Of a stretch of 59,919 bases of DNA, positions 46,323 through 48,984 are shown one piece after another (the stretch's first letter is position 1; every line of letters begins with the position of its first letter). The translations under genes and the position numbers were made by a program. The notes beneath the pieces were generated by a model. That model did not search any database, was not told the origin of the DNA, and saw only the letters and a list, made by a program, of their open reading frames with translations. The stretch spans positions 1 to 59,919 of the forward strand of contig CAKZOB010000016.1 of NCBI GenBank assembly GCA_937135955.1, read 5' to 3'. This DNA is from an uncultured Anaerolineales bacterium. GTDB lineage: Bacteria > Chloroflexota > Anaerolineae > Aggregatilineales > Aggregatilineaceae.

Positions 46323-46475
46323 AAGCCTGTGCGCAGGGGTTCGTAGCCTGACCAGGCGCTGGCGGGGAAGTCTCATAGCGGAATCACTGTGCTCAGGGGG
46401 CTGTAGGACATCAGACCCCGCCAGCGGTTCCGCTATGTGTTTTGATCAGGAGCGCAGGTGTGCAGGAGGTGCGAG
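46323..46475 (+). ncRNA. Structured 5' leader with interleaved helices (riboregulator candidate)
   Basis: Two perfect inverted repeats interlock in the order A-B-A'-B': A CGCTGGCGGGG (46357-46367) with A' CCCCGCCAGCG (46416-46426), and B CATAGCGGAA (46374-46383) with B' TTCCGCTATG (46428-46437). They form either a pseudoknot or two mutually exclusive hairpins. Smaller stems CCTG-TGCG-CAGG (46326-46337) and GCCT-GACC-AGGC (46346-46357) precede them. I cannot assign it to a known riboswitch class. It ends 39 nt before the ATG. Confidence 0.6.
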
Positions 46476-47141
46476 ATGGCCGTGATCACTATTTCCCGTC
46501 AGGTGGGGAGCGGAGGCGACGAGATCGCCGCGCGAATCTGCGAGCGTCTCGGCTACCGCTATTTCGACAAGCAGGCCATGATAGAGGCTGCCGCCGGGGC
46601 GGGCCTGTGCGAAGCTGAGGTGGTGGACTTCTCCGAAGAGCGCTACAAGGTGCAGGATTTTCTTTCGCGCATTCTGCGCAGCCGCCCGCGCGCGGTACGG
46701 CAGGTACTCATCCGCGAGGAAATGCATGGCCCCGTAGACACGCTCACCGCCCGCGAACTCGACGAAGAGCGCTGCGTCGAGCTGGTGCGGCTGGCTGTGC
46801 GCCATGCCTACGAACAGGGCGACATGGTCATCGTCGGGCGGGCGGGTCAGGCGATCCTGCGCGGGCTGCCGGGGGTGCTGCACGTGCGCGTCATCGCGCC
46901 GATCGAGGATCGCATCCGCCGTCTGCGGGAGCAGGGCATCAGCGGCATCAGCGAGATCAAGCTGACCATCGCCGAGCGCGACCGGGCCAGCGCCGCCTAT
47001 CTCAAGCGTTTCTTCGGCGTCTCCTGGGACGATCCGGCGCTCTATCACCTGGTGCTCAACACGGGCCTGCTCGATTACGACCTGGCCGCCGAAATCGTTG
47101 TGCACGCCGCGCAACACTTACCCCTGGCTGCCAACGTCTGA
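46476..47141 (+). CDS. Cytidylate kinase-like family protein, first of two
   Basis: 221 aa from ATG 46476 (AGGAGG 6 nt upstream). N-terminal TISRQVGSGGDEIAARICER is the P-loop form of the cytidylate kinase-like family (PF13189), and D-K-Q, V-I-V-G-R-A-G-Q-A-I-L and R-D-R-A-S-A-A-Y-L-K-R-F-F follow. The Arg-rich stretch VIAPIEDRIRRLR is the lid region. The family are NMP-kinase-fold proteins whose substrate is often unknown. It is preceded by a structured leader and its paralogue follows after 166 nt. Confidence 0.9.
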   Translation: MAVITISRQVGSGGDEIAARICERLGYRYFDKQAMIEAAAGAGLCEAEVVDFSEERYKVQDFLSRILRSRPRAVRQVLIREEMHGPVDTLTARELDEERCVELVRLAVRHAYEQGDMVIVGRAGQAILRGLPGVLHVRVIAPIEDRIRRLREQGISGISEIKLTIAERDRASAAYLKRFFGVSWDDPALYHLVLNTGLLDYDLAAEIVVHAAQHLPLAANV

Positions 47142-47255: not shown

Positions 47256-47307
47256 GCGGAGTGATTGGTAGCCCGCGTTCCGTATGCGGCTCGGCGAGGA
47301 AAAGGGC

Positions 47308-47973
47308 ATGGCTGTTGTCACCATTTCGCGTCAGATCGGCAGCGGGGGCGAGCAGATCGCCCGCCAGGTGTGCGAATTGCTCCATTACCGCTACTTCGAC
47401 AAGCAGTTGATCCTCGAAGCGGCGAGCGAAGTCGGTCTGGCTCGCGATCATGTGCTGGACTATTCCGAAGACCATTACGAGCTACAGAATGTCCTGGCCC
47501 GCCTGTTCCGCCCTGGGCCGCGTCCGGTCAAACGGGTGTCGGTGCGCACCGAAGATTCTTCCGGGCGAGTGCAGCTCACCGCCGAGACTATAGACGAAGC
47601 GCAGTACGTGGAGCTGATCAAAGCTGCTATCCGCACGGCAGCCGCGCAGGGCGACATCGTCATTGTGGGGCGTGGTGGTCAGGCCGTTCTGCAGGACATG
47701 CCGGATGTGTTGCACGTGCGCATCATCGCCCCCGACGGCACGCGCATTGCCCGCCTGCAACAGCAGGAAGGGCTAAGCATCGAAGCGGCGCAACAGAAGA
47801 TCGCCCGCCAGGATCGGGCCACCGCCGAATATCTGGGACGTTTCTTCGGCATTCGCTGGGACGACTCGACTCTCTACCATCTCATCATCAACACGGGCAA
47901 AATCAGCCTGGAGGGGGCGGCCCAACTCATCGTGGACGCCCTGGTGCAGTTGCGCGCCCATCCCATGCCCTGA
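47308..47973 (+). CDS. Cytidylate kinase-like family protein, second of two
   Basis: 221 aa, the same length as the first copy and co-linear with it (TISRQIGSGGEQIARQVCEL; VIVGRGGQAVL; R-I-I-A-P-D-G-T-R; R-F-F-G-I-R-W-D-D). Both keep the P-loop and lid residues. This is an old tandem duplication since residues differ widely between the anchors. AGGAAAAGGG precedes ATG 47308. The two may form a heterodimer or act on different nucleotides. Confidence 0.9.
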   Translation: MAVVTISRQIGSGGEQIARQVCELLHYRYFDKQLILEAASEVGLARDHVLDYSEDHYELQNVLARLFRPGPRPVKRVSVRTEDSSGRVQLTAETIDEAQYVELIKAAIRTAAAQGDIVIVGRGGQAVLQDMPDVLHVRIIAPDGTRIARLQQQEGLSIEAAQQKIARQDRATAEYLGRFFGIRWDDSTLYHLIINTGKISLEGAAQLIVDALVQLRAHPMP

Positions 47974-48141: not shown

Positions 48142-48182
48142 CATCAACACATATTGATGTTTCCCTTCGCGCACGGTATAGT
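48142..48182 (+). promoter_or_regulatory. Redoxin promoter with overlapping palindromic operator
   Basis: TTGATG (48154-48159), 17-nt spacer, TATAGT (48177-48182). The -35 is the right half of an inverted repeat CATCAA-N6-TTGATG (48142-48159), a fitting operator site that would block or position RNA polymerase. The ATG of the redoxin is 48 nt downstream. Confidence 0.65.
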
Positions 48183-48230
48183 CCTGGTGCTGATACTGGG
48201 TGATACACGTTTGCGCAAGGAGACGACCTC

Positions 48231-48869
48231 ATGGCACCTCGAACGCACTTCCCAGCCCCTGCCCTGCTCCGCCTGGCGGCGGGCGCGCTCTGGGCAATAT
48301 TGCTGGGCCTGCTGTTGATGGCCTGCGGCGGGGATAAGAAAGATGACTCCGCTCAGCAGTCCACCGCCACCCCAACTATTGGCGCGACCGGCCTGCAGGT
48401 GGGCGATGCGGCCCCCGACTTCAGCCTGCCCGCCGCTGGCGGAGGCACAGTTGCCCTGGCCGACTACAAGGGCCGACAGCCCGTATTGCTGTTCTTCCAC
48501 ATGGCCGATGGTTGACCGCCCTGCCTGCAACAGATCGTTGATCTGGAACAGGACCCCGACTGGCAAGCCTTGAATGTGGCTATTGTCAGCATTGCCCTCG
48601 ACCCCGCCGATCGCCAGGCCGCCGTAAAGCAGGAATACGGCATTCAAGCCCCTATGTTGATAGACGCCGATGCGAAGGTCTCCGCTGCTTACGATGTCCT
48701 GAAGTGGGCCATCGCCACGGGCGAGCCGGGGCACACCTTTATCCTGGTGGATCGTGACGGTCGGGTAGCCTGGATACGCGATTACGGCGCGCCCGACCTG
48801 CCCGAACGCACCATGTACGTCCCGCCGGAGGAACTCATCCAGCAGGTGAGAGACAGCCTGGCCGGGTAG
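48231..48869 (+). CDS. Probable selenoprotein: lipid-anchored thioredoxin-like redoxin with UxxC
   Basis: 212 residues if UGA 48513-48515 is read as selenocysteine (position 95). ATG 48231 has AAGGAGA 7 nt upstream. The signal peptide has a lipobox-like L-L-M-A-C (Cys about 32). The redoxin domain starts V-G-D-A-A-P-D-F-S-L-P. The frame before UGA ends V-L-L-F-F-H-M-A-D-G and continues after it P-P-C-L-Q-Q-I-V-D-L-E-Q, so the UGA takes exactly the place of the first Cys of the G-C-P-P-C redox motif (Cys98 is the second). The second half keeps typical redoxin strands (N-V-A-I-V-S-I-A-L-D, H-T-F-I-L-V-D-R-D-G). A SECIS-like hairpin follows UGA. It probably reduces disulfides or peroxides at the outer face of the membrane. 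Alternative: a nonsense mutation in a dead gene. Confidence 0.8.
48513..48552 (+). promoter_or_regulatory. UGA codon and SECIS-like hairpin
   Basis: After UGA (48513-48515), CCTG (48524-48527), CAGATC (48531-48536), loop GTT (48537-48539), GATCTG (48540-48545) and CAGG (48549-48552) form an upper 6-bp and a lower 4-bp stem with a CAA/GAA internal loop. The apical loop begins with G and lies 22 nt after UGA, in the range for bacterial SECIS elements read by SelB. Confidence 0.7.
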
Positions 48870-48984
48870 GGCCGCCGGGCTGTCTGGTAGCTGCTGTGAG
48901 ATGTCCGACGACGGCGATGCCTGGCTTACCCTACGTCCGCCAAGCGCACAGGCTACGGCTGACACGCTATTGGGGGGCGGCCCA

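Follow-up and report, generated by a model that had tools for sequence, protein, structure and literature searches.

Does a redoxin gene with a single UGA codon inside its reading frame represent a broken gene, or is the UGA decoded as selenocysteine (Sec)? The question is raised by a locus on the window, by which we mean the whole stretch of 59,919 nucleotides that was analysed. The first-pass annotation had claimed that one frame runs unbroken through the UGA at 48513-48515, that this codon replaces the first Cys of a G-C-P-P-C motif with redoxin features on both sides, and that the product is a selenoprotein that looks lipid-anchored. The features of the locus are collected in Table 1.

Table 1. 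Features of the locus, given in window coordinates, and the basis for each.
Feature	Position	Strand	Basis
Shine-Dalgarno-like AAGGAG ahead of the ATG	48217..48222	+	Direct sequence reading
Predicted selenoprotein gene, 212 residues, Sec at 95, stop TAG	48231..48869	+	TGA in 55/55 distinct loci
Predicted signal peptide with lipobox-like LLMAC; Cys32 the probable lipid-anchor residue	48231..48326	+	Predicted helix, family motif
AhpC/TSA (redoxin) domain, residues 57-181	48399..48773	+	Pfam PF00578, E 7.8e-27; structure model
UGA, very probably read as selenocysteine (residue 95)	48513..48515	+	TGA in family, Cys in sister clade
Cys98, partner of Sec95 in U-P-P-C	48522..48524	+	Invariant in the 54-member alignment
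SECIS-like hairpin, 6-bp stem, GUU loop 21 nt after the UGA	48531..48545	+	Pairing, covariation, fold

The reading frame and its predicted product

The frame is as claimed: it contains no in-frame stop other than this UGA, which falls at codon 95 within F-H-M-A-D-G-U-P-P-C, and the AhpC-TSA domain extends to both sides of it. The domain score is 94.1 bits (Pfam cut-off 26), and the protein also matches PF08534 (E 2.4e-18). Eleven NCBIfam families were matched at E 0.01, none of them over its own cut-off, and mostly the same families were obtained for the other 53 members of the family described below. In the ORF list the gene is divided at the UGA into a 94-aa piece and a distinct 99-aa piece that starts with TTG. 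Such genes are readily missed in annotation because the UGA splits the frame, and also because no NCBIfam cut-off is reached.

The lipid anchor proved plausible, short of proof. In the structure model a helix (residues 11-30) lies N-terminal to LLMAC, where Met at position -2 is atypical of the lipobox consensus. Of 54 distinct members, 51 show a loose lipobox motif; a contig end truncates two of the three exceptions (L092 and L112). Conservation of Cys32 across the 54-member alignment is 90% or higher. The redoxin is regarded as probably lipid-anchored at Cys32.

On the minus strand an ORF of 273 aa (48144-48965) overlaps the whole gene, and being long and open it might be taken for the true gene. 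GC-rich DNA often contains long antisense ORFs, and it is the plus frame that has the Pfam domain, homologues across many genomes and low dN/dS; we consider an antisense gene extremely improbable.

Conservation of the UGA codon and the cysteine sister clade

A search for relatives with the single window protein as query found none. Among 396 genomes of the class, 208 had some match at 1e-10, mostly to other redoxins. At E < 1e-50 nine of the 396 genomes remained, including the window genome, with matches at ten places (two in G252) and one TGA in each; the proteins of the eight other carriers are 57-68% identical to the window protein, and the TGA is at the identical codon throughout. A second collection of 54 loci was obtained with a nine-member alignment as query. 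Here 52 loci cover the Sec codon, all 52 with TGA, and two fall short of it. Seven second-collection loci are genes identical to those of the class search; with these removed there were 54 distinct loci, and a search of the phylum added one more (G528), also with TGA. In total, every one of the 55 distinct loci, the window included, has TGA as its Sec codon. Both search patterns lacked the UGA codon, so UGA was not selected for among the matches, although both were derived from Sec members and are biased to close relatives. By record title the carriers belong to Chloroflexota, Actinomycetota (Acidimicrobiia and others), and Desulfuromonadales and their kin. All but one of the 54 second-collection records are titled as metagenome-assembled genomes (MAGs), the exception being Pelovirga terrestris strain M08fum (L107).

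Selection on the codons downstream of the UGA was estimated from pairs of members. For the two pairs with the window gene, dN/dS was 0.24 (L014-L015) and 0.15 (L014-L073). Five of the six other pairs gave 0.02-0.14, and the sixth (L107-L111) gave about 0.25 on very few changes. Purifying selection was thus found in seven of the eight pairs tested, all eight having been picked by hand. These results bear on a pseudogene explanation, in which the TGA would come from faulty sequencing or from a nonsense mutation of recent date, as a single in-frame stop in a draft assembly and a frame broken in the ORF list might suggest. Neither an error nor a recent mutation agrees with TGA at the same codon in 55 distinct loci, one of them in P. 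terrestris, whose record is not titled as a MAG, or with purifying selection beyond the UGA, and we give the pseudogene explanation hardly any weight.

An alignment of homologues at residue 95 had been proposed as a check on the Sec reading. All close homologues found have UGA there, and Cys was found in a sister clade. When 400 genomes of the phylum were searched with the 54-member profile at 1e-25, there were 11 matches, two with TGA and nine without a stop. The nine stop-free loci (L130-L138), together with two RefSeq plasmid homologues examined among 81 plasmid records with some match, have Cys at the Sec site (11/11 examined), at 34-41% identity. A tree of 78 sequences, calculated with the site masked and rooted on a single outgroup (L023), groups the 55 Sec sequences as a clade with support 0.83; the 11 Cys sequences form a clade of their own (0.96), joined to the Sec clade (0.85).

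Seven other redoxins of the class (L025, L027, L032, L033, L035, L037 and L041), at about 30-37% identity, also have an in-frame UGA. They show U-G-P-C, U-P-F-C or U-G-T-C at the Sec site, and a further redoxin of the class (L040) shows T-x-x-U.

The SECIS-like hairpin and the selenocysteine machinery

A hairpin follows the UGA in which C-A-[GA]-[AG]-U-C pairs with G-A-[UC]-[CU]-U-G around a G-U-N loop. The stem keeps all six pairs in 51 of 54 members; L071, L076 and L108 each contain a single mismatch. Resampling of synonymous codons in 2000 draws, which used the family's own codon usage and ignored the relatedness of members, left on average 10.5 and at most 22 of 54 stems intact. The Gln and Leu codons in the stem covary, being CAG/CTG in 40 members, CAA/TTG in 13 and CAG/CCG in one, and in the nine-member set three of seven pairs had changes on both sides. 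For 52 distinct rows of the alignment, 15 cells were changed on both sides, a value reached by none of 500 shuffles. The number of pairs changed on both sides (2) was not above the shuffles (79/500 reached it), and neither was the number of further pair types (500/500). When the stem was slid along the alignment, no more than 47% of cells paired.

In the part of PMC13188914 consulted, bacterial SECIS elements are limited to a loop of 3-9 nt with an early G, a stem of 4-16 bp, a spacing of 16-37 nt from the UGA and an energy of at most -7.5 kcal/mol. The window hairpin is within all four limits (GUU, 6 bp, 21 nt, -12.9 kcal/mol). The energy is at or below the limit in 48 of the 54 members and above it in six; 42 members include the hairpin in their minimum-energy fold and 12 do not. 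Folding of single sequences gave modest z-scores for nine members, from -0.38 to -2.33. Taken together, there is a bacterial-type SECIS hairpin with covariation downstream of the UGA.

The hairpin also bears on how far translation proceeds. Translation could mostly end at the UGA, giving a product of 94 residues, or the downstream ORF could be a separate gene; the two pieces of the ORF list would agree with this, and to our knowledge Sec insertion is never fully efficient. Yet the domain and the conserved residues span the UGA, and the conservation of the hairpin exceeds what the codons require, which makes predominant termination very improbable.

A search of the genome for selA, selB, selC (tRNA-Sec) and selD had likewise been suggested, and all except selD were found. 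They lie near the start of contig C29 in the order selA (C29:252-1568, E 6e-164), selB (C29:1587-3428, E 9e-104) and tRNA-Sec (C29:3700-3794, 67.6 bits, anticodon tca). The tRNA-Sec was over the cut-off in all nine carriers of the class search, which is weak on its own (about 0.11 by chance) because it is common in the class (310/396 genomes). Of seven further carriers, six had a tRNA-Sec over the cut-off, barely so in the L082 genome (48.5 bits, cut-off 47), and none was found in the L112 genome.

With this machinery present we can also consider the reading of the UGA as some other amino acid, through a change of the genetic code or simple readthrough. The frame would be open whatever the UGA means. 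Known ends of 51 members are TGA in 20, TAA in 17 and TAG in 14; since 20 of 51 terminate with TGA, this codon also acts as a stop in the carriers. This, the Cys found at the site in all 11 sister-clade sequences examined, and the presence of tRNA-Sec, selA and selB together make another amino acid very unlikely.

The missing gene, selD, had no match over the cut-off in the window genome, the assembly of which is fragmented (93 contigs). It was present in eight of nine carrier genomes tested, the window genome being the sole exception. Each of the other eight carriers has one in-frame TGA in its best selD match (L048-L055). In the relative G232, selD starts about 1.5 kb from a gene that we read as argC-like, and 18 kb around selD contained neither selA nor selB by tblastn. 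The argC-like neighbour has an 81% match near the start of contig C61 of the window genome. This similarity stops 107 nt short of the selD start, and no convincing similarity to selD was found in the remaining 176 bases to the contig end. For the other neighbour of selD in G232 no clear counterpart was found in the window genome (best 35% identity). An assembly gap is the likely reason for the missing selD; it stays unproven because the edge of C61 holds no convincing piece of selD and the second neighbour has no clear counterpart.

Proposed function, genomic context and relation to known systems

From the conservation of the UGA, the machinery, the hairpin, the selection on downstream codons and the Cys sister clade, we conclude that the window gene very probably encodes a Sec-containing, exported UxxC redoxin, and that this redoxin is probably lipid-anchored. 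The Sec reading of the first-pass annotation thus gains strong computational support.

The AlphaFold model, calculated with the 54-member alignment, has pLDDT 88.4 and pTM 0.74. In Foldseek the PDB folds most like it are peroxiredoxins, led by the Bcp and AhpE types, with a TM-score of about 0.6 when normalised by query length. The sequence profile matches best to chains of a thioredoxin-family protein and of ResA; in ResA it is the CxxC that aligns to residues 95 and 98. Sec95 thus corresponds to the first Cys in ResA and to the T/S residue in peroxiredoxins. In CxxC oxidoreductases it is the first Cys that attacks, and for this reason Sec95 is rather likely to be the attacking and Cys98 the resolving residue.

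We propose that the UGA would be decoded as selenocysteine by tRNA-Sec and SelB under the direction of the hairpin. The product would then be exported, probably anchored through Cys32, and its AhpC/TSA-type redoxin would fold on the outer side of the membrane. There, Sec95 and Cys98 would cycle between selenol/thiol and selenenylsulfide, reducing substrates that may be disulfides or peroxides. An apparently stop-broken gene would in this way very probably yield a whole, membrane-anchored selenium redox enzyme.

Contig C41 of the window genome carries a fusion of a DsbD_TM/CcdA-like domain with a TlpA-like redoxin containing W-C-G-P-C (L149, 868-2490). As an electron donor to the Sec redoxin this CcdA-redoxin fusion is possible. 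A DsbD_TM match was present in eight of nine carrier genomes.

The neighbours of the gene in the window, none of which indicates a substrate, are two tandem cytidylate-kinase-like genes upstream (46458-47141 and 47284-47973, PF13189) and genes for an SH3/LysM protein, a TauE/SafE protein and, on the opposite strand, a PPDK_N protein downstream. In the fetched flanks (up to 5 kb) of 51 loci, i.e. the codon-covering loci of the second collection after a duplicate copy of one gene was dropped, motifs of copper-type P-type ATPases were found at 11, a CsoR-like motif at five and a multicopper-oxidase motif at three. None of these motifs had a match in the window or in 234,328 bases of control sequence chosen for convenience. 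Among the matches listed, the ATPase gene immediately precedes the redoxin gene at L080, L081, L086, L089 and L117, on the same strand and with an intervening gap of -4 to 86 nt. Pfam identified four E1-E2 ATPases, two metal-sensitive repressors and one multicopper oxidase in ten neighbours submitted; the metal of the ATPases and regulators we take to be copper from the known motifs. Also among the matches listed, genes for small Met-rich or Met-Gly-rich membrane-like proteins begin 12-18 nt downstream at L104, L108 and L109.

The copper link is a lead only, as the motifs were picked post hoc, the loci are related and the control was one of convenience. It is conceivable, though unlikely, that the clade serves in copper defence on the outer side of the membrane and depends on selenium for it: a lipid-anchored Sec-Cys redoxin, the sister of the Cys redoxin encoded beside CcdA but with no adjacent CcdA of its own, would repair copper-oxidised thiols or pass electrons to copper-handling proteins.

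The kind of protein is already known, since UxxC selenoproteins of PF00578 and PF08534 have been listed before. Table 1 of PMC13188914, in the part consulted, contains Prx-like thiol:disulfide oxidoreductases (PF00578, UxxC/UxxU) and a redoxin family protein (PF08534, UxxC, representative HEU0032618.1), and the consulted parts of PMC9312934 and PMC2398784 also include such UxxC selenoproteins (Prx-like 1 in PMC2398784). The window protein shares its Pfam family and the UxxC motif with the Prx-like class; it differs in that its clade has F-H-M-A-x-G-U-P-P-C, a lipobox and a hairpin of its own. On the listed description of that class (representative WP_010940744.1), the two possibly overlap. The PF08534 protein, likewise compared by its description, is UxxC like the window protein and may belong to the same clade. 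In the openly licensed literature we found no GUPPC motif described as selenocysteine or UGA, and we do not claim the clade as unreported. The present analysis adds a coherent clade with the Sec codon in each member found, and a Cys sister clade. According to the part of PMC12013277 consulted, deep-Sep may misidentify selenoproteins without Cys homologues; those found here have only the 34-41% identity given above.

Among the extracytoplasmic thiol-disulfide oxidoreductases ResA and TlpA, ResA has its CxxC aligned to residues 95 and 98 of the window protein, but here Sec replaces the first Cys, the score against the ResA family NF002854 is 43 bits (cut-off 170), and the best fold matches are peroxiredoxins. 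The active site of classical peroxiredoxins is T/S-x-x-C. Compared with these, including the AhpE and Bcp/PrxQ types that match the fold best, the window protein has U-P-P-C with Sec where they have T/S (at this site L023 has S and L040 has T), and by a count made by hand its Cys98 falls at the position of the peroxidatic Cys.

A further comparison is with the Cys redoxins of the sister clade (L130-L138, WP_203447417.1 and WP_166180631.1). At all nine Chloroflexota Cys loci the redoxin gene adjoins a CcdA-like gene, 41-70% identical by tblastn to annotated CcdA genes; the same tblastn gave no such gene in the window or in the flanks fetched for those Sec loci that were searched. The name CcdA-like follows from this search and from the RefSeq annotation of two homologues, and Pfam at 1e-5 gave no family for three of these neighbours submitted. 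On the Microvirga and Rubrobacter plasmids (L142, L143) the genes for CcdA, Cys redoxin and glutaredoxin are consecutive, and on the Rubrobacter plasmid lgt is next in the row. The sister clade has Cys for Sec and, at its Chloroflexota loci, a CcdA-like neighbour of which the tblastn found no equivalent around the Sec loci searched. Spanning Chloroflexota, Actinomycetota and Desulfuromonadales, the two clades offer a natural Sec/Cys comparison of why selenium is retained in an enzyme outside the membrane, a question that is testable because the carriers include a named strain, Pelovirga terrestris M08fum.
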